Positions 1 through 27,310 of a stretch of DNA of 64,000 bases are shown here, piece after piece (the stretch's first letter is position 1; the number at the start of each line of letters is the position of its first letter). Made by a program: the position numbers and the translations under genes. The stretch spans positions 4,030,001 through 4,094,000 of the forward strand of contig NZ_CP030050.1 of assembly GCF_015291705.1 (NCBI RefSeq), read 5' to 3'. The notes beneath the pieces are model-generated. The model saw only the letters and a list, made by a program, of their open reading frames with translations. It did not search any database and had not been told where the DNA came from. This stretch comes from Bradyrhizobium arachidis (GTDB taxonomy: Bacteria > Pseudomonadota > Alphaproteobacteria > Rhizobiales > Xanthobacteraceae).

Positions 1-648
1 GGGTGCCGGCATCTCATCTTCGCATCCTCTTCGTCGGTGTACGGCGCGAATACGAAGCTGCCCTTTTCGGTGCGGGACAATGTCGACCATCCGATCAGCC
101 TCTATGCCGCCTCTAAGAAGGCCAACGAACTGATGGCACATGCCTACAGCCATCTCTATCGCATTCCAGCGACCGGCCTACGGTTCTTCACGGTCTATGG
201 TCCCTGGGGCCGGCCGGACATGGCGATGTTCATCTTTGCCAAGGCAATCCTTGCCGGTGAACCGATCAAGCTGTTTAACCATGGCGCGATGCGGCGCGAC
301 TTCACTTATGTCGATGACGTGAGCCAGGCGATCATGCGCCTGATCGACCGTCCACCCCAGGGACAGCCGGGGCCGCCCGCCGATCCTGCGACCAGCAGCG
401 CCCCTTGGAAAATTTACAACGTCGGTAACAACCGTCCTGAAGATCTGATCGACGTGGTATCGCTGCTGGAGAAGGAATTCGGCAGGACGGCAATCAAGGA
501 AATGCTTCCGATGCAGCCCGGCGACGTTGAGGCGACCTACGCCGATATTGCCGAGCTCGAACGCGACATCGGATTCCGCCCGTCGACGACGATCGGCGAG
601 GGCATCGCATGGTTCGCGAAATGGTATCGCGAGTATCACCGGCTTTAG
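1..648 (+). CDS. NAD-dependent epimerase, UDP-glucuronate 4-epimerase type (5' end outside window)
   Basis: The reading frame is open from the first base, so this is the C-terminal part (about 215 residues) of a short-chain epimerase. The SSSVYG segment (catalytic Ser/Thr region) is followed by the YAASKK motif with the catalytic Tyr and Lys, then RFFTVYGPWGRPDMA and RRDFTYVDDV. These are hallmarks of UDP-glucuronate/UDP-galacturonate 4-epimerases used for exopolysaccharide or LPS sugars. The N-terminal Rossmann glycine motif lies outside the window. A GTG at 37 is internal to the conserved SSSVYG motif and is not a real start. The protein ends at TAG 648 and faces the convergent asparagine synthetase. 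The family call is firm; the exact sugar substrate is inferred. Confidence 0.88.
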   Translation, partial: GCRHLIFASSSSVYGANTKLPFSVRDNVDHPISLYAASKKANELMAHAYSHLYRIPATGLRFFTVYGPWGRPDMAMFIFAKAILAGEPIKLFNHGAMRRDFTYVDDVSQAIMRLIDRPPQGQPGPPADPATSSAPWKIYNVGNNRPEDLIDVVSLLEKEFGRTAIKEMLPMQPGDVEATYADIAELERDIGFRPSTTIGEGIAWFAKWYREYHRL

Positions 649-1032
649 CAGGTCGCGATCAGTGAAATGACAAGCACTGATCAAGTATGGGCGCCGGCAC
701 ACGATTGGAGTCCGCCTCGCGCGGTCGGGCTGAAGCAGTTCTTGCCGTGTTCGGACCGCGCTCGATCCTTCAGGATACGCCGATCTCGTGTTCGAATCCT
801 CAGCCTTTCGATCGTCCGATCTTTATTAGCAGCATCCCGATCGCCGTCAGCGCGGCGCGAACCGCACTGCGGTTTGTCGTCCCGGCACGGACGGTCGCGA
901 TGATCGCGCAAAGGATAGGCGGCGCGCGCTCTGTCGGCGTCACCGTAAAAGCCGAGGGGCGCGAGGGAAAGGAGCTTGCGCGCACCAACTCGGCGATGAC
1001 GGCGCGGCCACGCCGCAGATCGGTGCCTGCGA
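649..1032. other. Convergent intergenic gap, no gene seen
   Basis: This stretch lies between the converging 3' ends of the epimerase and the asparagine synthetase. Overlapping frames exist on both strands but none has a recognisable motif or a good ribosome binding site. A tRNA T-loop-like string near 790 does not pair into an arm. No convincing terminator hairpin was found. Confidence 0.5.
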
Positions 1033-2724
1033 TCAGGCCAGCGCCTGCTCGTGCACGCCGGCCACGGCGCGCCCGGAGGGGTCGGCCATCGCTGCAAAAC
1101 TGGCGTCCCAAGCGATCGCCGCCGGCGAGGAGCAGGCGATCGACTTGCCACTCGGCACGGTTGCGGCCGCCGCCTGGGTTGGGAAGAACTGCTCGAACAG
1201 GTGGCGATAGTAATACGCCTCCTTGGTCTGCGGCGGGTTGTGCACGAAGCGCTTGTCGGCTGCTGCCATCACCCGGGCGCTGACCTGCGATTCGGCGTGT
1301 GCCTTCAGCCCGTCGATCCAACCGTAGCCTACGCCATCGCTGAATTGTTCCTTCTGCCGCCACAAGATCGAATCCGGCAGATAGCCTTCGAATGCTTCAC
1401 GCAGCAGTGCCTTCTCGATCCGCCGCGCGCCGTCGGCGCCTTTGCCGACCATCTTGTGCTTGGCATCGATGCGCATCGCCACGTCGAGGAACTCGCGGTC
1501 CAGGAACGGCACGCGCGGTTCCACGCCCCAGGCCATCATCGACTTGTTGGCGCGCAGGCAGTCGTAGTTATTGAGCGCGTTGAGCTTGCGCACGAGCTCT
1601 TCGTGAAATTCGCGCGCATTGGGCGCCTTGTGAAAGTACAGATAGCCGCCGAAGATTTCGTCGCTGCCCTCGCCGGATAGCACCATCTTCACCCCCATCG
1701 CCTTGATCCGGCGTGCCAATAGGAACATCGGCGTGGAGGCGCGGATGGTGGTTACATCGTAAGTTTCGACGTGGCGGATCACTTGCGGCAGGGCGTCCAG
1801 GCCTTCTTCGAAGGTATATTCGAAGCCGTGGTGTACGGTGCCCAACGCCTTGGCGGCGATCGCCGCGGCGGCCAGGTCGGGCGAGCCCTTCAGACCGATG
1901 GCGAACGAATGCAGGCGCGGCCACCATGCCTCGCTCTGGTCGTCATCCTCGATGCGGTGGCGTGCGTAGCGCGCGGCTACGGCGGCGACTAGCGACGAAT
2001 CGAGGCCGCCGGACAGCAGCACCCCGTACGGCACATCGGTCATCAGCTGGCGATGTACCGCACGTTCGAAAGCTTCGCGCAGCGCGGTACGATCGGCTGC
2101 CACGCCTTCGACCGCGTCGTAGTCGCGCCACGGGCGCTCGTAGTAACGGGTCAGCGTATCCGCGGCGCTGTCGTACCAGTGGCCCGGCGGGAACTGCGCG
2201 GCGTCGGCGCAGATGTCGACCAGCGACTTCAACTCGGAGGCGACCACAAGGCGCCCGTCCTTGTCATGACCCCAGTACAGCGGCACCACGCCGATCGGAT
2301 CGCGCGCGATTAGCGCGCGTTGCTGCCCGCGGTCCCACAGCGCAAATGCGAAGATGCCGTTGAGGCGGTTCAGGAAAGAGGCCGGGGTGTCTTCGCGGTA
2401 GAGCGCGTTGATCACCTCGCAGTCCGAGCCGGTCTGGAAGGCGTAGGGCTGCGCCAGTTCGGCCTTTAGTTCGCGGTGGTTATAGATCTCGCCGTTGACT
2501 GCCAAGGCCAGGCCGCCATCCTCGGAGAGGAGCGGCTGTGAGCCGCCGGCCGGGTCGACGATGGCCAGGCGCTCATGGACGAGAATGGCCCCCGCATCCG
2601 CGTAGACGCCGCTCCAGTCCGGGCCGCGATGGCGCTGGCGTTGGGACAGATCAAGGCAATGGCGGCGCAGCGCTGGGAGGTCGTCGCCGGCCTGCAGGCC
2701 GAAAATGCCGAAGATCGAACACAT
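1033..2724 (-). CDS. asnB: Asparagine synthetase, glutamine-hydrolysing
   Basis: Makes L-asparagine from L-aspartate, ATP and glutamine in the cytoplasm. The 563-residue protein starts MCSIFG, giving the Cys2 nucleophile of a class II glutamine amidotransferase; RHRGPD (about 32-36) and AVNGEIYNH (about 75-83) complete that site. The synthetase domain has the PP-loop SGGLDSS at 238-244 and SGEGSDE further on. The ATG at 2724 was chosen over an upstream in-frame ATG at 2751 because Cys must follow Met and an AGGAGCGG ribosome site lies just upstream. It is the last gene of a minus-strand set (PPTase, NRPS, acyl-CoA dehydrogenase, asnB). Because the NRPS adenylation domain reads as asparagine-specific, this copy probably supplies a dedicated precursor. 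That is inference; a housekeeping role is possible. Confidence 0.93.
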   Translation of the reverse strand: MCSIFGIFGLQAGDDLPALRRHCLDLSQRQRHRGPDWSGVYADAGAILVHERLAIVDPAGGSQPLLSEDGGLALAVNGEIYNHRELKAELAQPYAFQTGSDCEVINALYREDTPASFLNRLNGIFAFALWDRGQQRALIARDPIGVVPLYWGHDKDGRLVVASELKSLVDICADAAQFPPGHWYDSAADTLTRYYERPWRDYDAVEGVAADRTALREAFERAVHRQLMTDVPYGVLLSGGLDSSLVAAVAARYARHRIEDDDQSEAWWPRLHSFAIGLKGSPDLAAAAIAAKALGTVHHGFEYTFEEGLDALPQVIRHVETYDVTTIRASTPMFLLARRIKAMGVKMVLSGEGSDEIFGGYLYFHKAPNAREFHEELVRKLNALNNYDCLRANKSMMAWGVEPRVPFLDREFLDVAMRIDAKHKMVGKGADGARRIEKALLREAFEGYLPDSILWRQKEQFSDGVGYGWIDGLKAHAESQVSARVMAAADKRFVHNPPQTKEAYYYRHLFEQFFPTQAAAATVPSGKSIACSSPAAIAWDASFAAMADPSGRAVAGVHEQALA

Positions 2725-2829
2725 GAACCGCTCCTGGTGATGAGGAGACAAACCAATCGTCTAGGAACTAACGCCTGTTGTGATCCGCTTCATGGCAAGC
2801 CCGCTACAATCAACGCCAGTGCGATGTCC

Positions 2830-4008
2830 TCAGGACATCGACGCGACCACCTCCAGCATCACCTCCGTCGCGCCGCCGGCGATGGACAGGATGCGGGCGT
2901 CACGTGCTATGCGCTCGATCGGACTCTCGCGCATTACGCCCATAGCTCCGTGGAACTGCACGCACGTATACACGACCTCGTTGACGAGTTCGCCGCAGAT
3001 GGCCTTCAACATCGAGATCTCGCGCATGCAATCTTCGTCCGCCGCCATGCGCCAAGCAGTGGCATAGAGAAACTGGCGGTTCGCCTCCACCTTCGCAGAG
3101 AGCATCGCGAGACGTTGCCGGATCGCCTGCATGTCCCATAGGACGGCTCCGAATGCGCGGCGAGCTTTCACCCAAGTGAGGGTCATTTCGATCGCCGCCT
3201 CGGCAGTCCCTATCGCCAGGGCGGCAAGCACAAGGCGCTCGTTCTGGAGGTTGCGCATCATGGAGTAGAAGCCCTGTCCCTCCGTGCCGAGCACGTTTTC
3301 GGCCGGGATATGGCAACCGTCGAAGACGAGCTCCGCCGTATCGGAGGACCGCCAGCCGTGCTTGTCCAACTTGCGCGCGACGCGGAAGCCCGGCGTTCCT
3401 TTCTCGATTAGGAACATCGTTATCCCGTTGCTTCCTGCCGAAAGATCGGTCTTTGCGGCGACGCAGTAAAGATCCGCGTGGACTCCGTTCGTGATGTAGA
3501 GCTTCGTGCCGTCGATGACGTAGGAGTCGCCTTCGCGGCGCGCGCGCGTGCGGATGGCCTTCATGTCCGAGCCCGCATCCGGCTCCGTGATGGCGACCGC
3601 GGTGATCAGATCGCCGCTGATAATGCCCGGCATCCAGCGGGCGCGCTGGGCATTGGTCCCGTCGTGAAAGACGTACCCGGAAGCCATGTCGGTATGGACC
3701 AGTATCGCATCGGCCGCGCCGCCATAGGTCGAGCGCCCAAGCTCCTCGGCGAAGACCGTCGATGCGACCGCGTCCATCTCGGCACCACCATACTCGGCCG
3801 GGTAGCGGATGCCGAAGAAGCCCAGTTCGCCCATGCGGCGCAGGACCGGGCGGGGAATGAACCCGTCTTCTTCCCAGCGATCCGCACAGGGCTTGATCTC
3901 TTCCTCGACGAACCGGCGGACTTGGTCCCGTAGGGACTCGTACTCCTCCGCCACCCAAGGCAGCCCCGGTCCTCGCACCGGTACCCAAGCTTTGTCCATC
4001 ATCTTCAT
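2830..4008 (-). CDS. Acyl-CoA dehydrogenase family flavoprotein (NRPS cluster)
   Basis: FAD-dependent acyl dehydrogenase fold of about 390 residues. It has the N-terminal helical domain, the AITEPDAGSD motif of the beta domain and a C-terminal helical domain with FHGAMGVMRES. The usual MCAD catalytic Glu in IYEGT is replaced (IAGGATE). A Glu in NERLVLAA sits at the place used by isovaleryl-CoA dehydrogenases, so the base is probably there. The gene lies about 70 bp downstream of the NRPS on the same strand and before asnB. Known relatives oxidise carrier-bound aminoacyl groups (for example prolyl-carrier dehydrogenases in pyrrole biosynthesis), so oxidation of the aminoacyl thioester on the neighbouring carrier domain is a reasonable inference. 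The start is uncertain: the frame extends to a TTG at 4029, with ATGs at 4008, 4002 and 3999. Confidence 0.85.
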   Translation of the reverse strand: MKMMDKAWVPVRGPGLPWVAEEYESLRDQVRRFVEEEIKPCADRWEEDGFIPRPVLRRMGELGFFGIRYPAEYGGAEMDAVASTVFAEELGRSTYGGAADAILVHTDMASGYVFHDGTNAQRARWMPGIISGDLITAVAITEPDAGSDMKAIRTRARREGDSYVIDGTKLYITNGVHADLYCVAAKTDLSAGSNGITMFLIEKGTPGFRVARKLDKHGWRSSDTAELVFDGCHIPAENVLGTEGQGFYSMMRNLQNERLVLAALAIGTAEAAIEMTLTWVKARRAFGAVLWDMQAIRQRLAMLSAKVEANRQFLYATAWRMAADEDCMREISMLKAICGELVNEVVYTCVQFHGAMGVMRESPIERIARDARILSIAGGATEVMLEVVASMS

Positions 4009-4077
4009 CCGCTCGGCTATGAGGCCCAACGCAGAAGCTTCCGTTCAGAAGCTGTCAGTTTTGGTCGTTTCAAAGAT

Positions 4078-6984
4078 CTACGGGCCCCGATCGTTGTTCG
4101 ATAGCATGGCGCCGACAATTGGCTGCCGGCTCGGGCTGGACGTGCCCTTTCGCAACCCCTGCCTCTCAGCAGGCGTCGGCGGGCGCGTGCGGTTCATTGA
4201 CCGAGGTGCGCTATCAGTCAGAACGTCAATCCGGTGCCGCAGATGATCGACCAGCCGATCTGCGCCAGAGGTCAGTATGTCGCTGTGTTCCCCAGCCATC
4301 TCAGTTACTTCAAGCCGGGAGCTGAGGCGCCACGCTCGACCATTGGAGCCGGCCGCGTAGAAACTCACAGGCACCTCGAGCGGCTCAGGAAGATATTGCG
4401 CCATTGCGCCTGAATAAGCGCCCCATAACGCCGGCGGGATATCAACATTGGGATTGGACAAGCCGTCATACAGCTTCCCGATCCGCAGCCGCTTCAGCAG
4501 TTTGGTGATTTTCTTGCTAGCTGACGCTGTGGAGAAGATTTCCAGATGGACCAACAGTTGATAGGTCCAGCGCAGACGGTAAGGCGAAACCACCGGCTTC
4601 ATCAGCCTCATGATCGCCCGCGTCACCGGACGGGCATTGATGGTCGGCGGATCAACCATCGCGACCATATCGACCTTGTGGCCGGCTGCCATCAGCAGGC
4701 GGGCTGCCTCGAACGCCACCAAGGCGCCGTTGCATTTGCCGCCCAGGAGGAAGGGGCCGCTCGCCTGCCTTTCCAGGATCAGCGGTAGGCGGTCCGCGGC
4801 CATCTCCTCGATCGACGGCGGAATCTGATCCCCGTGAAGACCGTGGGGATCGATGGAGACGATCGGATAATCAGGCCCGAAAACCTCCGCCATCCGCCGC
4901 ACAGTCAAGTGGCCGCCGATCAGGTCCCCATTGAAGAAATACAGGGGAGGCCTACCGCCACGGGTATGGAACTGGAGGATCTCCTCCCTCGGTTTCTCCG
5001 AGATTGAAGGGGTATCGGCCGCCATGCGCATTTCGTCGATCAATTCCGCCAGTTCGGCCACGGTTGGGCGCTCGAACAGAATGCGAAGCTGCATGTCGAC
5101 GCCGAAGGTCTTTCGCATGCGTGACACCGCCCGCATGACCAGGAGTGAGTGTCCGCCCAGGTCGAAGAAGTTGTCGCGACATCCGATCGATTTGATCTTC
5201 AAGAGATCGCACCACAGCGCGGCCAGCGTCTTCTCGGTCTCGGTGGAGGGAGCGGCGAAGTCTTGTGCAGGCTGGACGTTTTCCGCCGTCGGCTCGGGTA
5301 GCGAGGAGCGGTCGATCTTGCCGTTGGACGTGAGTGGCATCCGTTCGAGGCGAATATAGTGCGTTGGAATCATGGACTCCAAGAGTTCTTCGGCGAGGTG
5401 GGCGCGCAGGTCTGACACGGCCAGGAGCTTCGATGAGACATAGTAGGCGACAAGTCGTGCGAGGCCGTCTTCGGCCGCTGGCGGTTCGACATGGCCGACT
5501 TGGGGCATTATTTGTGTCGCTGGCTTCGCCACCGAGGTGGCAATGGCAGCGACAGCGCATTCCTGAACGTGCGGATGCCTGAGAAGCCGTGCTTCGATCT
5601 CGCCCAGTTCGATACGCGTGCCACCGATCTTCACCTGATGGTCGGCGCGGCCGAGAAATTCCAGGCGCCCTTGCGAGTTCCAGCGGGCTAGATCTCCCGT
5701 CTTATAAAGCCGCAGGTCAGAAGACCCACCTCGGGGATCGGCGGCCATGTGGAAACGCTCATCGGTCAGGTCAGGGCGATTGAAATAACCTCTCGCCAGA
5801 CCGTCGCCGGCAATGAACATCTCTCCGATGATGCCGGGGCCGATGGGATGATATGCCTTGCTGAGGATGTAGATCCCCGCATTGGCGGCTGGAACGCCCA
5901 CCGGCACCGACGCGGATCGATCCCGGTCAATGTCGAAACGGTGAATCATGCAGCCCACGGTGGCTTCGGTTGGCCCGTATTCGTTGTAGATCTCGGTGGG
6001 ATGGGGGATAGCTTTCGTGATATCGCGGGCCAACTCGGTCTTGAAATCCTCGCCGCCCACGATGAACTTTCGCAGTCTTGTGGTCGCAAGATTGCGGTCG
6101 CGGACCATCGCCAGATGTGCCGGCGTCAGCTTCATGATGTCGACGGCATTGTCGTCGACGACCTTGAGCACCACCATGCTCTGCGCTCCGGGATCGCCAA
6201 GATAGACCACGATGCGGCCGCCGGTGATGAGCGGTGTGAACAGTGTTGTGACGGTAAGGTCGAAGGCGAGAGATGAGAAAAGAGGCCATGCGAGACGTTC
6301 GCCGGAACTGTAGACCCGAGCCGCCCACCAGATGTAGTTCACCAGGCTGCGGTGCTCGATCTCGACGCCCTTGGGAGTGCCGGTCGAGCCGGAGGTGAAG
6401 ATGATATAGGCTGTGCCGTCCGGCGTAGCGGCGGACGGTCGGGCCGAATCCGGCTGATTCAAAATCGAACCAAAATCGGCGTCGAGCACGAAGATGTCGG
6501 CAAGGTTCGGGGAAATGACCGATTGCAGGCGCGCCTGAGTGATCACAACCGGCGCCCGCCCGTCGGTCCCGTTGGAAATGTCCTTCAGGATCGTTGCGAT
6601 ACGTCCCTTCGGCGTTGCCGCATCCAGCGGCACGTAGGCTGCGCCGGACTTTAGGATGCCCAAGATCGCGACGACAACTTCAATGGAGTGCTCCATGAAC
6701 ACCACGGCAATCCGACCCGGTCCTACGCCGGTCGAGCTCAAATGCGTGGCCATCTGGTCAGAGTGTTGGTCGAGCTGTCGGTACGTCAGCGTTGCATCAC
6801 CGAAGCGGATCGCTTCGGCATCGGGACTCCGCGTCACCTGATCGCGGAACAGATCGACGATCGTCCTGTCCGACGGGTAGGGCGCCGCCGTGGCGTTGTA
6901 GTCGACAACCAACGCCTGATGGTCGGCCTCTTTCAGCAGCGCAAGCGGTACGCCCTCTGCCGGGATGGGTAGGACTTCATTCAT
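4078..6984 (-). CDS. Single-module NRPS: adenylation-thiolation-thioesterase, predicted Asn-specific
   Basis: A 968-residue peptide synthetase without a condensation domain. The adenylation domain (about 35-560) has FTSGSTGTPKG near 196, YGPTE, YKTGD and the A10 lysine in NGKID near 556. Aligned by eye to GrsA, the ten specificity positions read D-L-T-K-I-G-E-V-G-K, one change from the published asparagine code DLTKLGEVGK. The carrier domain has LGGHSL with the phosphopantetheine Ser near 613. The thioesterase (about 675-925) has GGKCNG, a Cys near 751 in place of the usual Ser, with a later VDPP Asp and GEHSD His. The start at 6984 is preceded by GGGAG at good spacing; the ATG at 6999 has none. 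A PPTase gene lies upstream; an acyl dehydrogenase and asnB lie downstream. The product is likely a modified asparagine or asparaginyl derivative (inference). Confidence 0.9.
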   Translation of the reverse strand: MNEVLPIPAEGVPLALLKEADHQALVVDYNATAAPYPSDRTIVDLFRDQVTRSPDAEAIRFGDATLTYRQLDQHSDQMATHLSSTGVGPGRIAVVFMEHSIEVVVAILGILKSGAAYVPLDAATPKGRIATILKDISNGTDGRAPVVITQARLQSVISPNLADIFVLDADFGSILNQPDSARPSAATPDGTAYIIFTSGSTGTPKGVEIEHRSLVNYIWWAARVYSSGERLAWPLFSSLAFDLTVTTLFTPLITGGRIVVYLGDPGAQSMVVLKVVDDNAVDIMKLTPAHLAMVRDRNLATTRLRKFIVGGEDFKTELARDITKAIPHPTEIYNEYGPTEATVGCMIHRFDIDRDRSASVPVGVPAANAGIYILSKAYHPIGPGIIGEMFIAGDGLARGYFNRPDLTDERFHMAADPRGGSSDLRLYKTGDLARWNSQGRLEFLGRADHQVKIGGTRIELGEIEARLLRHPHVQECAVAAIATSVAKPATQIMPQVGHVEPPAAEDGLARLVAYYVSSKLLAVSDLRAHLAEELLESMIPTHYIRLERMPLTSNGKIDRSSLPEPTAENVQPAQDFAAPSTETEKTLAALWCDLLKIKSIGCRDNFFDLGGHSLLVMRAVSRMRKTFGVDMQLRILFERPTVAELAELIDEMRMAADTPSISEKPREEILQFHTRGGRPPLYFFNGDLIGGHLTVRRMAEVFGPDYPIVSIDPHGLHGDQIPPSIEEMAADRLPLILERQASGPFLLGGKCNGALVAFEAARLLMAAGHKVDMVAMVDPPTINARPVTRAIMRLMKPVVSPYRLRWTYQLLVHLEIFSTASASKKITKLLKRLRIGKLYDGLSNPNVDIPPALWGAYSGAMAQYLPEPLEVPVSFYAAGSNGRAWRLSSRLEVTEMAGEHSDILTSGADRLVDHLRHRIDVLTDSAPRSMNRTRPPTPAERQGLRKGTSSPSRQPIVGAMLSNNDRGP

Positions 6985-7039
6985 GAGATGGGCTCCCATC
7001 GGGCAAAATAAAAATCAAATCAAGTCACCGGATGATCAT

Positions 7040-7819
7040 TCATTTCCGAACGACCATGTTCCCGATGTATCCAGATTTCGGTACGAACGTTCGGACAACC
7101 CAATCCTTTTCATCCCAGGAAATGCGCTGTCCTAAGCCGCACCCCAGGGCCTTGGAGATTGCCTCCAGCCGGGTCCAATGCCGGAGGAAGTCTTCCAGAC
7201 GGTCTTCCGGACCAAGGGCGGTGTAGGACTCGTACTCGGAGGCGGAAAGACAGAGCGCCGCGATCTCGTCCGCTTCGGGCACCGGGAGAATTGCCTCGAT
7301 GTCCACCCCGATCTCTTGCCTGGTCGAGAGCGCTATGACCGCCACATCTGCGGATCGTGAGACGCTGAAGTGCAAATCGCGCGCAGGCATACGGTGCGAG
7401 AGGTGAGGTTTGCCCAATCGTCCATACTCTAGTTCGACGTCGGACGGCGAAATTCCCAGTTTGGAAGCGAGGACCCGGCGCAGTTGCCCCCGGGTAACAA
7501 TAAAGCGGCGGCGGTCCTGCTCCAATCTTAAACGCTGGGCGCGCCGACGTTCCTCGTCGTTGAGGCAAGCGCCTGTCCGCCGGATGGTGTCCGGCTCCAC
7601 ATCGAGCATGAATGTCAGGATCTCCAATCCATCATTCTCGAAAACCGGCATTTCGGTCCGGGGTCTCAGCTCGACCGCTTTGTCCAAAAGGCTCGAGAGG
7701 GCCGTGTTGGATTTGCGCGCCCCGCGTTCAGGCTTGTGGCCCGGCCGGTCCTGGCCACCAACGCCATAACGATCCTTCTCCCACTCGTTCTGCGCGCGGG
7801 CCTTGATGCGAAAACTCAT
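7040..7819 (-). CDS. 4'-phosphopantetheinyl transferase, Sfp type
   Basis: Transfers phosphopantetheine from CoA to the serine of carrier domains. It contains the GKPHL region, HFSVSRS, the magnesium-binding IGVDIE motif and the WTRLEAISKALGCGL segment corresponding to the WxxKEA motif, with Leu where Lys is common. Length (about 259 residues) fits the Sfp/EntD-like family plus a charged N-terminal extension. It ends about 55 bp before the NRPS start on the same strand, so it almost certainly activates that carrier domain and heads this small operon. The start is GTG 7822 or ATG 7819, with AAGG just upstream. The first ~45 residues are not conserved-looking, so a later start is possible. Confidence 0.88.
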   Translation of the reverse strand: MSFRIKARAQNEWEKDRYGVGGQDRPGHKPERGARKSNTALSSLLDKAVELRPRTEMPVFENDGLEILTFMLDVEPDTIRRTGACLNDEERRRAQRLRLEQDRRRFIVTRGQLRRVLASKLGISPSDVELEYGRLGKPHLSHRMPARDLHFSVSRSADVAVIALSTRQEIGVDIEAILPVPEADEIAALCLSASEYESYTALGPEDRLEDFLRHWTRLEAISKALGCGLGQRISWDEKDWVVRTFVPKSGYIGNMVVRK

Positions 7820-8483
7820 CACGCCTTACTTTCTGCGCCCAAATTCTGATTTCGGATCGCCAGCAGTAGAGTTGGAACGGCATTTGAACGGTTGCGGATC
7901 GGAAGTTTAATCCCGCAGTGCGATGGCTCAATGGACCATCGTAATTACCCATTTGTTGCCGCTTCCCATCCAGCGGCCCGGGGATTGCACAGGCGGCGGA
8001 GCTCATCGCGGAGCATGCTCCTCGAGCAAGGCGATGTAGAGGGCGCGGATTGTTCCGGCGCGCCCCGTCCAGATTAGCTGCGCTCAGGCGAGCTTCGCGC
8101 TCGCGGAGAGCTACGGACCCTTGGGTCCTGCGGAGTGGGGGGAGTTACGGGACGCGCGGCGACGCAATCAACACGCAGAATCTCTATGCGAGGGCTGCCG
8201 AATCAAGAAAGGCGAAAGAACGAAACGCGGCGCGGCGTCGGCGAGCGAAGCCAAAGGAGGTAATCCCTCGGCGTCGTTGCACTCAGCTGTGGCGACAAGT
8301 CAGTTGGACGCGCGAGAAGTCTGGCAAAGCTGCTGAGGAGCTGACACTCGCTTCAGGCGATCTGCGGCGAAGCCTCTTGCCGCAGTCGCGTTGCAGCATC
8401 CGCTATCAGGGTCGAGTTTTGAGAGCATAGACGTTGGATGCGCAGGAATAGGGCCGGTTGTGTAAACACAGGAACTGTCCACG
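7820..8483. other. Divergent intergenic region, PPTase operon / galE
   Basis: About 660 bp between the divergent PPTase and galE genes. It must hold promoters for both, but no confident -35/-10 pair could be assigned. Arg-rich open frames around 8050-8430 show no motif and are probably random or decayed sequence. Confidence 0.45.
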
Positions 8484-9509
8484 ATGATTCTTTTGACTGG
8501 CGGCGCTGGCTATATTGGATCCCATGTGTGCATTGCCTTACTGGATGCTGGGTTCGATGTCGTCGTAGTTGACAATCTCTCGAACAGCAACAAAGCCTCC
8601 CTTGAGCGGGTACAACTCATCTGCGGGCGATCCCTCACCTTTCGGCAGGTCGACATTTTGGATGAAGAGGCCATCTACGAAACACTATGTTCGTACGAAG
8701 TATCGGCGGTTATCCATCTTGCGGGCTTGAAGGCGGTAGGCGAATCCAGCATTCGTCCAATGACCTATTACGAAAACAACCTGCTCGGAAGCATGCGCCT
8801 CGTTTCGGCGATGAACAGGGCAAGTGTAAAGACGCTCGTCTTTAGCTCGTCCGCCACCGTTTACGGTGTACCTACGTACCTGCCGCTCGACGAGCACCAC
8901 CCTCTTGGGCCGACAAACCCATACGGCCGTACTAAACTCTTCATCGAAGAAATGTTGAAGGACCTCTATCGGTCCGACAATGATTGGCGAATTGGGATTC
9001 TCCGATATTTCAATCCCGTCGGCGCACATGAAAGCGGGCTGATCGGTGAGGACCCGAAGGGCGTCCCGAACAATCTGCTGCCATTTGTCGCGCAAGTGGC
9101 GATCGGAAAACGAGAGAAGCTGCGGATTTGGGGAAACGATTACGACACGCCGGACGGCACTGGGATCCGCGACTTCATTCATGTCGTTGATCTTGCGTCT
9201 GGTCATCTGAGTGTTTTGAATAGCCTGAAGCAGCCCGGACTCCTTACGGCGAACTTTGGAACGGGCAATGGCAGCAGCGTTCTGGACGTTGTTCGGACGT
9301 TTGAAGCCGTGAGCGGTAGGTCAGTTCCATTTGAGATTGACAAGCGCCGGATCGGTGATGTCGCTGTCTGTTTTGCCGATCCCACGTTTGCCGAAAGGGT
9401 GCTGGGGTGGAGATCGGTGCGATCACTGGAGGAAATGTGCGCAGACCATTGGCGCTGGCAATGCAAGTGTCCCGACGGTTATCGTGGTACAAACTCTGAA
9501 GGCCGTTAG
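8484..9509 (+). CDS. galE: UDP-glucose 4-epimerase
   Basis: Interconverts UDP-glucose and UDP-galactose with bound NAD. The 341-residue protein opens with the Rossmann motif TGGAGYIGSH and VDNLSNS. It carries HLAGLKAVGES, the SSSATVYG segment (catalytic Ser/Thr), the NPYGRTK motif with Tyr-x3-Lys, RYFNPVGAHESGLIGEDP and RDFIHVVDLA. All are diagnostic for GalE rather than for uronate epimerases, and the length is normal. The gene is monocistronic by spacing. The ribosome site is weak (AGGAACTG upstream). The product would feed galactose into surface polysaccharides, consistent with the other sugar-nucleotide epimerase at the window start. Confidence 0.93.
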   Translation: MILLTGGAGYIGSHVCIALLDAGFDVVVVDNLSNSNKASLERVQLICGRSLTFRQVDILDEEAIYETLCSYEVSAVIHLAGLKAVGESSIRPMTYYENNLLGSMRLVSAMNRASVKTLVFSSSATVYGVPTYLPLDEHHPLGPTNPYGRTKLFIEEMLKDLYRSDNDWRIGILRYFNPVGAHESGLIGEDPKGVPNNLLPFVAQVAIGKREKLRIWGNDYDTPDGTGIRDFIHVVDLASGHLSVLNSLKQPGLLTANFGTGNGSSVLDVVRTFEAVSGRSVPFEIDKRRIGDVAVCFADPTFAERVLGWRSVRSLEEMCADHWRWQCKCPDGYRGTNSEGR

Positions 9510-9893
9510 ATCGCGCCGCGATTGGACGATGTCAGGCGCACAAGTCGTCGACCGCGTGTGGCTGTGGTGTCGCTGTAAGCCGAACGCCGCCCATCACGAG
9601 AGCCGCCCCAACAAGATCCAGCCACAAATGTCGACTGATGATGCGAACTGCGATGTCGCTGCCATCATACCAGCGAGCGGAGTGCGCAACAATATAGGAT
9701 CCTACCGCGACAACGACATGCTCGGGCGCGGAAATGCCGCGCCACTGCGTCAATATCCGAGACCGCGAGCGCGGCAATAACTGTCTGGCTGCTGATTTCC
9801 GGAAGGTATGGTGAAGACGGACCTTGGTGGTCCCATCGCCCAAATGTTCAGTCGGCGCGCAATGTCCGTCCCGGTCTGGGCTTTCATCGCTGT
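9510..9893. other. Gap with one doubtful minus-strand frame (9532-9843)
   Basis: A 103-codon minus-strand frame at 9532-9843 encodes hydrophobic stretches (for example LWLDLVGAALVMGG) and could be a small membrane protein or the relic of one. I recognise no family and no good start. Nothing else is visible here. Confidence 0.25.
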
Positions 9894-10049
9894 TTATTCC
9901 ACCGACGGATCGTCGCGGAGCAGCTCTTTCTTCAACTGCCGCTCCGCTTCCAAATAGAACTCTTGGTCTCGCCCCTTAGGCATCCCGGCTTGCTCCCACA
10001 GCCGATACGCGCGGCACTCGATCTGCTTCTGGCTTGGAAGAACCCCCAT
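9894..10049 (-). CDS. DUF2934 small protein
   Basis: Short protein with the DUF2934 pattern: a Tyr-x-Leu-Trp-Glu segment (CRAYRLWEQAGMPKGRDQEFY) followed by an AERQLKKEL helix. The family is common in rhizobia and has no established function. The ATG at 10049 has AAGG at proper spacing and gives 51 residues. An in-frame TTG at 10109 would add 20 residues with no visible ribosome site. No operon partner is apparent. Confidence 0.6.
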   Translation of the reverse strand: MGVLPSQKQIECRAYRLWEQAGMPKGRDQEFYLEAERQLKKELLRDDPSVE

Positions 10050-10830
10050 CTGCCTTAATCCCGAGGGGCTTTGACCGTGAGATTGGCCGCCTCTGCTCGT
10101 ATCGATCAACCCGTTGTCTCCTCAGCTAATCCCTGGTTCTATCGCCCACAAACATCCAACTGCCGCCCGCTTGATGGTCGCTGATGCGAACTAACAGGCG
10201 CCAAGCGTGATCCGGACCTCGTGAAGTCCGCCGCGCAGAAGTCCACGGAATCATGTGGGCGGTGCCGTGGCGTTGGGAGTGGAGAAAACTGCTCGCGTTT
10301 CCCGGAGCGAGCTCGACCGGATCGCGCGGTAGGCCGGGGCCAAGTACTCCCTGGGTCAGGCGGTCTAGGAACACGCCTCGTAGCGGATGACCTTTGCTGG
10401 CGCGGCTGTTGGAACACGGGCAATCCATCCGAAATTCGATGCGAGAGTCCGATGGGGAAGATAGGGCATCATCACCGACGGGCAATGTTCCGCCAAGAGG
10501 TCACGGTGAGCGGCCGACACCCGCCGTCTGATGTCGTTCCATTCCGGCTCCAGTGCGATCGCAATCGAGTGTCGGATACTGCGTGCAGGCGAGTGAGCGC
10601 GACGGCGATCGCTATGGAGCTGTCATGGCTGGCGTGTCAAACGCGCGAAGATCAAAACACATTCTGTGCGCTGTGGTCGAGGTCTGTGCAAGGAGATAGG
10701 CCACAGCAGCGTGGCCGCTGTGGCTTATCGAAGATTGCGAGCTGCGTGACGGTTACCGTGCCGTGGGAGTAGTCTTTCATCAGGTCAGACACGCCGTTGC
10801 GATGAGGTGCTAGACACGGAACGATGCCCA
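10050..10830. other. Long gap without a recognisable gene
   Basis: About 780 bp between the DUF2934 gene and the 3' end of the first LuxR gene. Open frames on both strands (for example 10221-10772 plus, 10126-10485 minus) are Arg/Pro-rich, contain no motif and lack plausible starts. It may be decayed accessory DNA. Confidence 0.4.
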
Positions 10831-11637
10831 TTAATCGAGTTTAGTGACCCCGGGACCTTGATTGACATGAGCCTGGCGATCGGGTCGCAAGGCGCCGAGA
10901 CCTGTGGGGTGAGGGATGATCGAGGGCAAGGTGTGTCCATCTGCAGAATGCATCAGTGATCCGTTGTTCATTCCCCAGATCGCGGCCTGCGTCCGGTTCT
11001 GGACGCGGATCTTGCGCAGAATCGCCTTGACGTGAACCTTGACCGTCGCCTCAGCTATGTCGATCTTTCGGGCAATGGACTTGTTGGAATTGCCCTCGAT
11101 CAAACAAGACAAGATCGCCTTCTCGCGGGGAGAAAGATGTGGTGCGACCGGCTCATCCGTCGTGAGCACGATGCCATGCTCGACCTCTTCGGCTGGTGTT
11201 GCTTCGCGCTCAAGAATGCCGTCAAGCGCGAACGACAGAAAAGCCGGCGGAAAGACCGCCTCTCCCATCGTCACGAGTTCGATGGACTTGATGAAGGCGT
11301 CGCAAGAATTGACGTTCACGAAATAGCCGCTCGCACCAGCTCGATATGCCGAGACAAGTTCATCCGGGCGATAATGATCCGATACGACTGCGACACGCGC
11401 ATCAGGACGCTGACCCCTGACGAAACGTATCTGGTCCAATGCGACATCGAAACTGTCGCCGTTGTGGATGATGAGAAACAGTAGTTGATGTGACTGGAGC
11501 TCGTTTGGCAATTCTTCAGCGCTCGAAACAGAGAGCAGGATCCGGAAACTCGCAGCATGTAGGATCCGTGAAATTCCCTCTCTGACTAAAATGTTCTTTC
11601 CAATAAGAATAGTTTCGAAAGATTGACGCCTCGGCAT
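10831..11637 (-). CDS. LuxR/NarL-type regulator with pseudo-receiver domain (copy 1a)
   Basis: About 268 residues: an N-terminal receiver-like domain (about 5-120) and a C-terminal LuxR helix-turn-helix (about 165-230: HLSPREKAILSCLIEGNSNK then TVKVHVKAILRKI). The receiver lacks the usual acidic pair (IGKN instead of a DD/DE pair) and has Asn (IIHN) where the phosphoacceptor Asp is expected, so phosphorylation control looks lost. The ATG at 11637 has a strong GGAGGG site; a TTG at 11649 is unlikely. It is divergent from regulator 1b across a 398-bp AT-richer region. Its closest visible relative is the regulator at 15951-16751; the HTH regions differ at only a few positions. Confidence 0.85.
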   Translation of the reverse strand: MPRRQSFETILIGKNILVREGISRILHAASFRILLSVSSAEELPNELQSHQLLFLIIHNGDSFDVALDQIRFVRGQRPDARVAVVSDHYRPDELVSAYRAGASGYFVNVNSCDAFIKSIELVTMGEAVFPPAFLSFALDGILEREATPAEEVEHGIVLTTDEPVAPHLSPREKAILSCLIEGNSNKSIARKIDIAEATVKVHVKAILRKIRVQNRTQAAIWGMNNGSLMHSADGHTLPSIIPHPTGLGALRPDRQAHVNQGPGVTKLD

Positions 11638-11797
11638 TGTACCCTCCAACGACGTACGCTACGCAATTACACGACTGCAATGGAAGATCTTGAAGTCAAA
11701 GTTACCTGCGCCGGCGCTGCCTCCTAACAGGCCGCCAGTTGATCGCCTTTTTCGGCGGGATATCCTTTCGTGCTACCTCGGCTGTGTGCTTCCAGCC

Positions 11798-11846
11798 TTT
11801 GCCATTGTTTGGCAGGTTTTTGCCATCATTTGGCGGGTTTCCCGCC
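11798..11846. promoter_or_regulatory. Tandem dyads between divergent LuxR genes
   Basis: Two copies of TGCCA-N5-TGGC(A/G) begin at 11800 and 11821, 21 bp apart (two helical turns), each an inverted repeat. A third perfect dyad GGCGGG-TTT-CCCGCC follows at 11832-11846. They are a candidate operator for the neighbouring regulators. Copy 2 does not show them. Confidence 0.45.
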
Positions 11847-11882
11847 TTCAAGTGGTTAAGCTTTTCCTAACGTTAAATCCGG

Positions 11883-11920
11883 ACTTCCGATTTCGATATA
11901 TACCGTTCGTTATAGGTTTA
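11883..11920. promoter_or_regulatory. Conserved intergenic element (copy 1)
   Basis: This stretch contains TATATACCGTTCGTTATAGG and matches 16888-16923 in the second copy, which has TATATACCTTTGGTTATAGG. The copy-2 version is an imperfect palindrome (CCTATATACC/GGTTATAGG). Preservation in otherwise diverged spacer suggests a promoter or regulator site. Confidence 0.5.
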
Positions 11921-12035
11921 CTCCCGGAAACTACTGGCGTCCCGGGGCGGGCTGCACAATCTACAGATGAATCAGCCATAGAATATTTCCGCACGTTGAG
12001 TTAATCCGTAGGGCTACGCGGGGACTGAGGAGCCA

Positions 12036-12695
12036 ATGAATTGCACAAGGGTGGTAATTGCAGACCGGCATCCGATGGTCTTGCAGGGTCTGAGCAGCCT
12101 GCTCGGCGCGGAAGGCGACTTCGAAGTTGTTGCATCTTGTAGCGATGCTGCGAGTTGCGTGCAGGCGATCGAGAGGCTCGCGCCCGACATCGCGATTCTC
12201 GATTCAACAATGCCCGAGCTGATCGCACTGAGCTCCTCCGTCCTCAATCCGGCCGATCGCTCGATCCGCTTGGCGTTTTTCATGCCTTCAGAAGACTACG
12301 ACCTTTTGTTGCCGGACGCGTTAGATGGCTGCAGCGTGGTCCTGAAGGAAACCTTGTCCGAAGTGCTGGTGCAGTCCTTGCGACAAATCGCGCGCGGTGA
12401 ACGAATATTACCGCAGCCTTCGATTGATCAGGCTACACCGGCTGGCCATGGGGTGACCTCGGACAGTGCGCTGGCCATGCTGACGGACCGGGAGCGTCAG
12501 ATCATGCGCCTGGTATCGGAAGGACTGTCAAACAAGCAAATTGGACGCCGCTTGAACATTGCCGACGGCACAATCAAAGTCCATCTTCACCATGTCTTTC
12601 AGAAGCTGGAGATCAGCAACCGAACAGCGCTTGCGGCTCTCGCCATTTCGCAAAATGATCGGGGCACTCCGGTCAAGTCGACGGAGTCCGAATGA
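12036..12695 (+). CDS. NarL/FixJ-type response regulator (copy 1b)
   Basis: 219 residues: receiver domain (1-120) with an acidic Asp10, phosphoacceptor Asp56 in DIAILDSTMPE and the conserved Lys in VVLKE, then a LuxR-type HTH (about 145-205: LTDRERQIMRLVSEGLSNKQ, TIKVHLHHVFQKLEI). Unlike its divergent neighbour 1a, it keeps the phosphorylation site. GAGGAG precedes the ATG at good spacing. No cognate histidine kinase is adjacent, so the partner is unknown. Paralogue of 17300-17962. Confidence 0.87.
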   Translation: MNCTRVVIADRHPMVLQGLSSLLGAEGDFEVVASCSDAASCVQAIERLAPDIAILDSTMPELIALSSSVLNPADRSIRLAFFMPSEDYDLLLPDALDGCSVVLKETLSEVLVQSLRQIARGERILPQPSIDQATPAGHGVTSDSALAMLTDRERQIMRLVSEGLSNKQIGRRLNIADGTIKVHLHHVFQKLEISNRTALAALAISQNDRGTPVKSTESE

Positions 12696-15950: not shown

Positions 15951-16751
15951 CTAGTGGATGTCCGAGATCTCGGCCTCCTGATGACCGCGCCCATTCGGGG
16001 CCTGGTTCGGAGCCGCCGCCCGATCGATTGACAGCGTCAGCGCGTGCCCATTGGACGGCCGGACCAGTGGTCCGTTGTTCATTCCCCAAATTGCGGCCTG
16101 CGTTCTATTCTGGACTCGTATCTTGCGCAGGATCGCCTTGACGTGAACTTTCACCGTCGCTTCGGCAATATCGATCTTTCGTGCAATGGATTTGTTGGAA
16201 TTGCCTTCAACCAAAAAGGAGAGAATCGCCTGCTCGCGCGGTGACAGATGGGGGGCGATCCGTTCCTTAGCCGGAGCGAGGACGCTTGATCGCTCTTCGC
16301 TCGCCGGCGGCTGGGCCTTGCGGTTAGGCTCGAGATCGAGCACGAACGACAGAAATGCGGGCGGAAATACCGTTTCGCCCATTGTCACAAGCTCGATCGA
16401 CTTTGTGAAGGTGGCGCATGAATTGACGTCGGCGAAGTAGCCGCTGGCGCCCGCCCTGTAGGCCGAAATCAATTGTTCCGGCCGATAGTGGTCCGAAACG
16501 ATCGCGACGCGGGCGTCTGGATAGTGCTCCCTTACAAACCCGATGTGCTTCAGGGTGAGATGGAACTCGTCGGTGTCATGGACAATTACAAACAGAAGCT
16601 GGTCTGCTTGGAGTGTGCTCGGCAATTCGTCGGGACCCAAGGCCGACATTACGATGTGAAAATCTGCCGCATGCAGGATTCGGGAAATACCCTCTCGCAG
16701 TAGAATATGTCGTCCAATCAAAACCACTTTGCAGGATTGTCGCCTCCTCAT
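15951..16751 (-). CDS. LuxR/NarL-type regulator with degenerate receiver (copy 2a)
   Basis: About 266 residues, paralogous along its whole length to the regulator at 10831-11637. The receiver-like N-terminus lacks the usual acidic pair (LIGRH). It does have Asp (VIVHD) at the position where copy 1a has Asn, so the copies differ at the would-be phosphoacceptor. The LuxR HTH (HLSPREQAILSFLVEGNSNK, TVKVHVKAILRKI) is nearly identical to copy 1a. The ATG at 16751 has GGAGGG upstream; an in-frame start at 16781 is less likely. The two C-terminal tails are unrelated. The gene is divergent from 17300-17962. Confidence 0.85.
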   Translation of the reverse strand: MRRRQSCKVVLIGRHILLREGISRILHAADFHIVMSALGPDELPSTLQADQLLFVIVHDTDEFHLTLKHIGFVREHYPDARVAIVSDHYRPEQLISAYRAGASGYFADVNSCATFTKSIELVTMGETVFPPAFLSFVLDLEPNRKAQPPASEERSSVLAPAKERIAPHLSPREQAILSFLVEGNSNKSIARKIDIAEATVKVHVKAILRKIRVQNRTQAAIWGMNNGPLVRPSNGHALTLSIDRAAAPNQAPNGRGHQEAEISDIH

Positions 16752-17299
16752 ATCACCCTCCGCGTCAACGCAACGATACAACTTGAACGAATAAGGCTTG
16801 GGAAAAGACAGTTGAGTAGGAAAAGCTCGAGCGCGTGTAGGCCTCCCGATTTTGTTTCGATAGCATTTGCTGAAGGTTAGATTTGAATCTTCGGTTTTGC
16901 CTATATACCTTTGGTTATAGGTTGACCGGCGGCGACGCGGTCGAATGACGCGGCGTTGCAGCTGCTGGAGATGCGCGAGAACGCGCCAGCAATCTCAAAT
17001 GCGCGTTTACGATGCACTGCAGCACGCTGTCATTCCAGGTTCGCAAATGGATAGAACACTTGTGCCCTCTTGAGTATTGACCACCGGAGTCCTACGGGCC
17101 TCGGCGCGGCAAACTTGCTGTATACTGGAGCTTCAGACTCGTGCGATCATCTACCTTATGGTTTACGCGTTTTGCTCTTGTGACTGACACTTCGGAATAT
17201 TGATGAGGTTTTTGGTGTTCAAGCAATATTGGAGCGGCCAGGGCGGGGGCCCGTAGCTTCAATCACAGAAATGGGGGGCGGCTGGTTAGGGAGCGCCCG
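16752..17299. other. Divergent promoter region between regulators 2a and 2b
   Basis: About 550 bp. It contains the conserved element at 16888-16923. No gene was seen. The stretch 17040-17260 has no counterpart noticed in copy 1 and could be an insertion. Confidence 0.5.
16888..16923. promoter_or_regulatory. Conserved intergenic element (copy 2)
   Basis: Counterpart of 11883-11920. It contains the imperfect palindrome CCTATATACC-TTT-GGTTATAGG. It lies about 137 bp upstream of regulator 2a and 377 bp upstream of 2b, against 246 and 116 bp in copy 1. Confidence 0.5.
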
Positions 17300-17962
17300 A
17301 TGCGTCGTGCGACTGTGGTGATTGCGGATCGACATCCGGTAGTCTTGTACGGTCTCGCAAATCTACTCGGGTCAGAACCTGATTTCGAGGTCATTGCATC
17401 CTGCGGTGACGCCGGGAATTGCATCGCGGCGGTTCTAGACCTTGCTCCCGACATTGCGATCATCGATGCGGCAATGCCGGAGTTGATCGCGCTGCTGAAC
17501 GATTCGCTCGACCGCTCGCAGAATCGATCGACCCGCCTGGTGTTCTTCGCAGCCAGCGAAGATTGCGATCTCATCTCAGCGGGGCTCCCCGCGGGGCACA
17601 GTGTTCTTCTAAAGGAGATGGCGGGCCAGGCGCTGGTGCAGTGCTTACGTGAGGTTATTCATGGTGCGACTGTCGTCCCGGGAGCGCCTATAGATCAGGT
17701 CGCACCTCAGGAGCAGAGCGCAAATCCGGAAAATGCACTCGCTGTGCTCACTGAGCGAGAGCGGCAAATCATCCGCCTTGTCTCTCGCGGTCTCTCCAAC
17801 AAGGAGATTGGCCGCCTGCTCAACATTGCTGATGGCACCATCAAGGTGCACCTCCACAAGATCTTCCAAAAGCTCGAGGTCGGCAATCGCACGGCGCTTG
17901 CTGCGCTCGCCATCTCGCAGGATGAGGGCGCAAATTCAATGCAGGACAGGCAGCGCAAATAG
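17300..17962 (+). CDS. NarL/FixJ-type response regulator (copy 2b)
   Basis: 220 residues, paralogue of 12036-12695. The receiver keeps the phosphoacceptor Asp in DIAIIDAAMPE and the Lys in VLLKE. The LuxR HTH reads LTERERQIIRLVSRGLSNKE and TIKVHLHKIFQKLEV. The ATG follows GGGAG at good spacing. The regulator pair 2a/2b repeats the arrangement of 1a/1b: one partner with an intact receiver, one with a degenerate receiver. This suggests the two proteins act together, possibly as heterodimers or antagonists (inference). Confidence 0.87.
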   Translation: MRRATVVIADRHPVVLYGLANLLGSEPDFEVIASCGDAGNCIAAVLDLAPDIAIIDAAMPELIALLNDSLDRSQNRSTRLVFFAASEDCDLISAGLPAGHSVLLKEMAGQALVQCLREVIHGATVVPGAPIDQVAPQEQSANPENALAVLTERERQIIRLVSRGLSNKEIGRLLNIADGTIKVHLHKIFQKLEVGNRTALAALAISQDEGANSMQDRQRK

Positions 17963-26276: not shown

Positions 26277-26286
26277 GATGTCTCCT

Positions 26287-27309: not shown

Positions 27310-27310
27310 C

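Follow-up and report, generated by a model that had tools for sequence, protein, structure and literature searches.

Operon architecture

A 64 000-nt stretch of the Bradyrhizobium arachidis genome (assembly GCF_015291705.1, contig NZ_CP030050.1, positions 4,030,001 to 4,094,000; 'the window' below means this whole stretch) contains a probable operon of four genes encoding a phosphopantetheinyl transferase (PPTase), a single-module non-ribosomal peptide synthetase (NRPS) with adenylation (A), thiolation (T) and thioesterase (TE) domains, an acyl-CoA-dehydrogenase-like flavoprotein (ACAD) and a glutamine-hydrolysing asparagine synthetase (asnB). We propose that this operon, an apparently reduced member of a wider family of asparagine modules, may dehydrogenate an asparagine held on its carrier domain. 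All four genes run in one direction on the minus strand of the window, separated in the order PPTase-NRPS-ACAD-asnB by gaps of 40, 48 and 105 bp (Table 1). The longest open reading frame (ORF) of asnB reaches position 2751 with a TTG start, and the ATG start gives the end at 2724 used here.

Table 1. Features of the operon, with window coordinates and the evidence for each assignment
Feature	Position	Strand	Evidence
PPTase, 260 aa	7040..7822	-	PF01648, AASDHPPT_N; upstream orthologue in 23/23 relative loci reaching that far
NRPS, single module A-T-TE, 973 aa, predicted Asn-specific	4078..6999	-	Pfam domains; code DLTKIGEVGK
Adenylation domain, approximately residues 20-570	5290..6942	-	TIGR01733, 410.9 bits vs cut-off 317.4; specificity positions
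Putative scar of deleted AMDH domain, residues 497-512 IMPQVGHVEPPAAEDG	5464..5511	-	Matches C-terminal end of AMDH insertion
Thiolation (carrier) domain, Ser618 in GGHSLL	5038..5229	-	PP-binding, 9.4e-17
TE domain, Cys756 (GGKCNG), by eye Asp783 and His905	4150..4977	-	PF00975; joined behind carrier tail PREEI
ACAD, 399 aa	2830..4029	-	PF02771/PF02770/PF00441; alignments to solved ACADs
asnB, glutamine-hydrolysing asparagine synthetase, 563 aa from ATG	1033..2724	-	NF006949, 861 bits

The Pfam and NCBIfam matches, together with these coordinates, bear out the four-gene cluster described in an earlier sequence-only reading of this DNA. That reading was also right that a condensation domain is missing: the Pfam matches of the NRPS (AMP-binding, AMP-binding_C, PP-binding and Thioesterase) include none, and as they cover only the A, T and TE domains they include no inserted oxidase domain either. 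The top NCBIfam match of the PPTase is HetI, with a score under the HetI cut-off.

Specificity of the adenylation domain

The ten specificity positions of the A domain (residues 247, 248, 251, 290, 313, 315, 340, 348, 349 and 561) read DLTKIGEVGK, in a motif-based register set against a stretch of GrsA that is identical to residues 232-333 of 1amu. Of the 120 homologues listed, 117 share this code; that of P0087 and P0094 is DLTKVGEVGK, and in P0088 the last position falls in a gap. The ten aligned positions uphold the Asn-type code of the sequence-only reading, but not its claim that the code is one conservative change away from the published one, as PMC12283262 has already published exactly this string among its Asp/Asn codes, where it is called 'also compatible' with beta-cyanoalanine. 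Activation of Asn by this domain is well supported by the code. That same compatibility, and the loading of several amino acids by CysH in vitro described in PMC7966384, would allow the code to mislead and the domain to load Asp or beta-cyanoalanine instead. We hold this to be very improbable in view of the constancy of the code, the linkage to AsnB and the absence of AMDH from the module and, in a search whose positive controls worked, from the rest of the genome.

Relatives of the operon and loss of the AMDH insertion

Thirty-six related loci were collected from named genomes, and the 24 close relatives among them (L016-L037, L044 and L048) were used, the 12 remote ones being left aside. The close relatives come from Bradyrhizobium, Mesorhizobium, Nitrobacter, Tardiphaga, Rhodopseudomonas and Microvirga. 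A PPTase gene and a separate TE gene precede the module in 23/23 loci reaching that far (all except L031), and ACAD follows it in 23/23 (all except L048). The occurrence of the module is sporadic: of 391 genomes sampled from the window's family 9 have it (E-value 1e-150), as do 7 of 146 genomes of Mesorhizobium, the genus of L018 (E-value 1e-180). A second clade (clade 2, loci L110-L113) has an Asn module ∼40% identical to that of the window, with the code DLTKVGEVGK, together with TE, ACAD and asnB; its TE is 34-37% identical to the discrete TE and its ACAD 36-38% identical. The set of A-T, TE, ACAD and asnB is therefore conserved even between such distant modules. Among other neighbours, a methyltransferase joined to a TubC_N docking domain is encoded next to the clade-2 Asn module of L113 (4954-6285), and a C39-peptidase ABC transporter with a HlyD-like protein (L026, 3643-7744) lies upstream of the Rhodopseudomonas copy.

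Relative modules of ∼990 aa carry in the A domain an insertion of ∼310 aa that contains SGGKD, the motif given for AMDH domains in PMC7966384; AMDH is described there as converting CysH-bound Asn to beta-cyanoalanine or isoasparagine. Residues 497-512 of the window NRPS (IMPQVGHVEPPAAEDG) match the tail of this insertion (IMAQIGYVEPPAAEDG in P0013), and because of this scar we consider it most likely that the window module has lost its AMDH domain. Other AMDH-less relatives show remnants of different lengths, or none visible. On an A-domain tree of 48 hand-chosen rows, 15 of them with the insertion, the distribution of the insertion needs six changes, at least three of which are forced by well-supported branches. 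A search of the window's genome found no AMDH elsewhere. As a control, the same search recovered the in-module domain in all eight genomes with AMDH modules; in the 13 genomes without an in-module domain it gave nothing in 11 and weak partial matches in two (those of L016 and L017).

By this comparison of gene content we take the window operon to be a derived, reduced variant of a family with the plan PPTase, separate TE, A[AMDH]-T and ACAD. The description of the operon as a 'complete minimal pathway' has to be revised: in the relatives the TE is a gene of its own and AMDH is often present, and the window operon is a derived form with a fused TE. A small, undescribed product made from one activated Asn is plausible and unproven.

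Fusion of the thioesterase

The window operon contains no separate TE gene. Relatives consisting of A-T only end at or near PREEIEL, while the window protein runs on into its TE as PREEI-LQFHTRGG. L016 and L028 encode ANL-PCP-TE proteins close to the module, and with the TE of these the window TE shares 59-68% identity, against 29% with a discrete TE; when the discrete TE of the relatives was searched against the window's genome, the top match was the fused TE itself (30%). The nucleophile is Cys in 12 of 12 hand-picked fused proteins and in 20 of 20 aligned discrete TEs. The latter 20 carry GxCxG, and by eye the usual Asp and His positions are absent from them. The window TE is a fusion with a Cys nucleophile, present in place of the separate TE of the relatives. 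An AlphaFold model of the window TE was set aside (mean pLDDT 40.5). A model of a discrete TE (pLDDT 77.2) matches ordinary NRPS/PKS thioesterase domains, a resemblance equally compatible with a shuttle and with a hydrolase. In a metagenome protein (P0065) a TubC_N-TE unit is fused ahead of an A-T module with the AMDH insertion, the reverse of the order in the window.

The discrete TEs may point to another role, in which the module feeds a second carrier: the Asn-derived group would be shuttled, as by CysB, SyrC or CmaE, and joined to the acyl group of an ANL-PCP-TE protein. The discrete TE of L017, the one scanned, has an N-terminal TubC_N docking domain, and the lack by eye of canonical Asp and His in the 20 GxCxG-bearing TEs also fits a shuttle. 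ANL-PCP-TE proteins are encoded in the same locus as the module in L016, L028, L114 and L115, and an orthologue of 900 aa lies ∼50 kb from the window operon (L148 6458-9160, G000:C1:3978458-3981160); it is 77% identical to that of L028, and the identity between its TE and the fused TE of the window is 57%. A precedent is CysB, which according to PMC7966384 moves Asn from CysH. Yet the window has its TE in cis, with Cys and, judged by eye, also Asp and His, a set that favours release; there is no condensation domain among the Pfam matches; within the DNA covered an ANL-PCP-TE gene is found in only 2 of the 24 close relative loci; and the likeness to CysB comes from its description rather than from a sequence comparison. 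Transfer to a second carrier is, in our estimate, rather improbable, and release by the fused TE is the reading carried forward.

Linkage of asnB to the module

The identity of AsnB is clear: it scores 861 bits against an NF006949 equivalog cut-off of 499, of the proteins with a solved structure it matches asparagine synthetase B best (1ct9, 1.7e-220), and it has the N-terminal MCSIFG, with the N-terminal Cys, and the PP-loop SGGLDSS. NF006949 is passed by none of four other Asn_synthase proteins scanned in the window's genome. No AsnRS over the cut-off was found in this genome (best score 90 bits against 342.6), and free Asn is therefore probably not needed there for Asn-tRNA.

In 265 genomes of the window's genus, asnB over the NF006949 cut-off is present in 21. 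The module family is present in 25 of the same genomes, 19 with scores of at least 994.8 bits (clade 1) and six with 507.8-538.6 bits (clade 2), a division set after the scores were seen; the clade-2 members are open frames of 653-679 aa, and the next match (484.9 bits) lies in a frame of 5541 aa. All 21 asnB genomes are among the 25 with the module (15/19 in clade 1, 6/6 in clade 2 and 0/240 of the others; Fisher p 1.9e-27, uncorrected for relatedness). Both genes are on one contig in 16 genomes and at most 15 kb apart in 15 of them, nine pairs being separated by 1.5-3.4 kb and six by 10.7-13.4 kb; in five draft genomes they are on separate contigs. The link between asnB and the module within the genus is real.

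Several observations weigh against a fixed role of AsnB in the pathway. In genome G466 asnB is 6.3 Mb away from the module, and four of the 25 module-bearing genomes of the genus (G444, G390, G451 and G540) have no asnB. In a set of 22 module-bearing genomes (the window's and 21 from the relative loci), asnB over the cut-off is present in nine and absent from 13, and the latter include every one of the nine from Nitrobacter, Mesorhizobium and Microvirga; in the genomes without it Asn must come from elsewhere. In addition, three further proteins of the window's genome exceed the cut-off of the general model asn_synth_AEB, TIGR01536 (480, 454 and 387 bits against 267.1), and AsnB may not be the sole source of Asn there. 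Within a few kilobases of the module asnB is found in 4 of the 24 relative loci, L029 and L048 ending too early to tell. The tie between AsnB and NRPS suggested by the sequence-only reading is borne out inside the genus but mostly fails outside it, and the outcome for adjacency is mixed, since few relative loci have asnB nearby while in the genus asnB occurs only with the module. In short, asnB is an optional rather than a fixed part of the module family, mostly missing outside the genus.

The gene is co-directional in L021 and L026, where its product is 92% identical to that of the window, and convergent in L016 and L028 (∼55%). The window AsnB is only ∼55% identical to the other AsnB proteins of the genus, so two asnB lineages are in use. 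A role of asnB as a replacement for the lost AMDH was considered and dropped, as L028 and G523 (L114) carry both.

If asnB were instead a passenger of polysaccharide gene clusters, unrelated to the NRPS, its adjacency to a GNAT gene rather than to the NRPS in G466 (L117) and L118-L120, as well as its absence from the 13 genomes, would be accounted for. The co-occurrence within the genus argues otherwise, as do the co-directional position of asnB behind ACAD in three genera (window, L021 and L026) and its place next to the distant clade-2 module in the four loci read. A passenger asnB appears decidedly improbable, and we retain AsnB as a likely supplier of the module in genomes that have it.

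Co-variation of ACAD with AMDH

The catalytic Glu264 of the window ACAD takes the place that Glu has in IVD-named and similar enzymes (the IVD/LCAD position) and is present in 31 of 31 loci. Gly385 sits where 5ol2 has the SCAD/MCAD-type catalytic Glu, that of YEGT, and residue 384 aligns with the Tyr preceding it. These are the two positions of the ACAD catalytic base discussed in PMC11153573, which also lists Tyr411 of LCAD, the residue before Gly412, as lining the substrate cavity. Residue 384 of our alignment probably corresponds to this Tyr411.

We compared columns between loci with AMDH (nine) and without it (18). Two of the 399 ACAD columns separate the classes perfectly, column 107 (I vs D) and column 384 (G vs A/S). 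None of the 260 PPTase columns and none of the 343 columns of the discrete TE (26 rows) does so, and in A-T one of 665 does (residue 658, in the tail). The split is followed by all 34 distinct ACADs remaining from 55 rows after removal of duplicates, a set from which clade 2 and a truncated row were omitted: the 25 without AMDH all have D107, with A384 in 24 and S384 in one, and the nine with AMDH all have I107 and G384. The window ACAD has Asp107 and Ala384. Clade 2, which has no AMDH, has Q107 in the two readable loci and Y384. Since the two columns track AMDH, the probable substrate of ACAD is the Asn-derived group on the carrier. The pattern suggests that ACAD meets this group after, or together with, AMDH, and that in the window operon it probably oxidises the tethered Asn itself.

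There are points on the other side. On the trees each trait changes twice, one change being that of L018, whose ACAD groups with those of AMDH-bearing loci but has D107 and S384; the co-variation amounts to about two independent events, one of them a single locus, and a paired test has too few events to reach significance. Column 107 lies in what we take to be the helix-E stretch, in a tentative register rather than one from a tool-based structural mapping. Moreover, ACAD is far under the cut-offs of the prolyl-PCP dehydrogenases (RedW, 239.7 against 650; PigA, 198.1 against 500), and therefore family membership alone leaves action on an aminoacyl carrier unproven.

Proposed pathway

Gene content, specificity code, the identity and linkage of AsnB, the AMDH scar, the TE fusion and the co-variation of ACAD with AMDH are what the sequence provides; from them we infer each chemical step below, and the product. 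The best explanation, to which we assign a probability of roughly 0.6, is that Asn is tethered, alpha,beta-dehydrogenated on the carrier and released by the Cys-type TE. AsnB would make free L-Asn from Asp and Gln, and the PPTase would turn the NRPS into its holo form, after which the A domain would adenylate Asn and load it on the T domain. ACAD would then take two hydrogens off the bound Asn, Glu264 removing the alpha proton and FAD the beta hydride, to give 2,3-dehydro-asparaginyl-S-T (2-aminofumaramoyl or 2-aminomaleamoyl). The TE would accept this group on its Cys, and hydrolysis, cyclisation or handover to an acceptor could follow; cyclisation by attack of the side-chain amide would yield 3-aminomaleimide, and the acceptor might be a surface sugar, as the polysaccharide neighbourhood suggests. 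The operon would have descended from the wider family by loss of AMDH, with the fused TE taking the place of the separate one.

A fuller version is tentative and, taken as a whole, unlikely: ACAD would desaturate the carrier-bound Asn, its pocket having adapted when the AMDH that formed a nitrile or isoasparagine was lost, and the TE would cyclise or transfer the group as 3-aminomaleimide or 2-aminofumaramoyl, perhaps onto a surface polysaccharide. The literature searched gave no precedent for such an amino-acid oxidation, 'dehydroasparagine' is not present in the matches listed, and we found no report of an NRPS with exopolysaccharide and asparagine synthetase in Bradyrhizobium. Nor did those searches yield a paper that combines an ACAD with asparagine, an NRPS and a thioesterase, be it in Bradyrhizobium or for single modules, or one that brings together a PPTase, an A domain, an ACAD and exopolysaccharide. 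On the biosynthesis of aminomaleimide they led to a review of cyclic imide drugs, and on AsnRS and free asparagine in Bradyrhizobium no listed title was to the point. The operon offers a small and testable four-protein pathway for chemistry without description in that literature, as well as a biosynthetic asnB linked to a non-ribosomal module in a genus otherwise without asnB. The natural series of modules with AMDH present, AMDH lost and TE fused is a route to the role of AMDH domains outside antibiotics.

Comparison with known systems

Like CysH and its partner CysB (cystobactamid) and AlbIV (albicidin), the window has a stand-alone A-T module with an Asn code; its relatives share with CysH and AlbIV the SGGKD-bearing A-domain insertion, and an alpha/beta-hydrolase-type partner recalls CysH/CysB. 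These likenesses are drawn from descriptions rather than direct sequence comparison. Unlike CysH and AlbIV, the window has a scar in place of AMDH, a TE in cis with a Cys nucleophile, ACAD and asnB, and its operon contains no assembly line to take the residue. We class the operon as a derived member of an Asn-module family resembling CysH/AlbIV.

The prolyl-PCP dehydrogenases RedW and PigA are likewise ACAD-fold flavoproteins with a catalytic Glu beside an aminoacyl A-T module, with alpha,beta-oxidation on the carrier as the likely shared reaction, and their solved relatives 4irn and 5zw0 match the window ACAD by sequence; the differences are the scores given above and a substrate predicted to be Asn rather than Pro. 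Indigoidine-type synthetases have the order A-Ox-T-TE. In common with them, one amide amino acid would be oxidised and cyclised at a single module, but that of the window has no inserted oxidase domain, the oxidation would be carried out in trans by ACAD, and Asn stands in for Gln. AsnB is a full-length relative of the bacterial enzyme (1ct9), differing in that its gene is tied to an NRPS locus.

Genomic neighbourhood

The DNA flanking the window on its left carries genes for a UDP-sugar dehydrogenase, an epimerase, glycosyltransferases, a flippase-like protein and a Wzy_C protein. An IS66 transposase (L052 7202-8830) lies within this polysaccharide region. In the flanks of 15 relative loci we counted five Poly_export, five group-1 glycosyltransferase and three Polysacc_synt proteins among 117 ORFs, taken from 163 listed by leaving out four loci, long ORFs, GNATs and a few others. 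None of these three families is among the 25 listed for 91 control ORFs (750 aa or shorter, sampled at 20 places in the window's genome), a list in which singletons beyond the 25 families are unseen. In clade 2, polysaccharide genes (Wzz/kinase, flippase-like, glycosyltransferase and UDP-sugar genes) are among the scanned neighbours in all three loci covered (L110, L112 and L113). A GNAT gene (PF13480) is present in 18 of 19 clade-1 genomes, one of six clade-2 genomes and seven of 240 others (clade 1 against the rest, 18/19 vs 8/246; Fisher 8e-21, ignoring relatedness).

These neighbours suggest a different destination, in which the Cys-type TE or, in relatives, the linked GNAT attaches the Asn-derived group to a surface polysaccharide or to a precursor of one, so that it is not released as a diffusible metabolite. 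We treat this as a possibility while leaning against it: the enrichment of GNAT in clade 1 favours transfer, but the window's genome has no GNAT orthologue at an E-value of 1e-60 and clade 2 is nearly devoid of it, the three scanned neighbours of the L019 copy are non-polysaccharide genes, and the Poly_export counts alone are not significant (5/117 vs at most 1/91, p 0.23). If true, it would be of interest in tying NRPS chemistry to the rhizobial surface polysaccharide.

A sigma-70 pattern scan of the operon gave 0 promoter-like sites against a shuffle mean of 2.0, and the four terminator-like sites are below the shuffle mean of 6.0. An Rfam scan of window positions 1-12000 produced no match, and a search of phages found no near match of the operon. 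In a tblastn search of plasmids, NRPS-type matches came from 2611 records; the identity was 60-80% in one of them and below 60% in the others.

Four LuxR/NarL-type regulators are encoded close together in the window (10831-11649, 12036-12695, 15951-16781 and 17300-17962), and GerE proteins flank the module relatives as well (7 of the 117 flank ORFs). Further along, at 24280-28903, genes for a CoxE-like VWA protein, an AAA ATPase and molybdopterin-binding proteins resemble a carbon monoxide dehydrogenase-type cluster.

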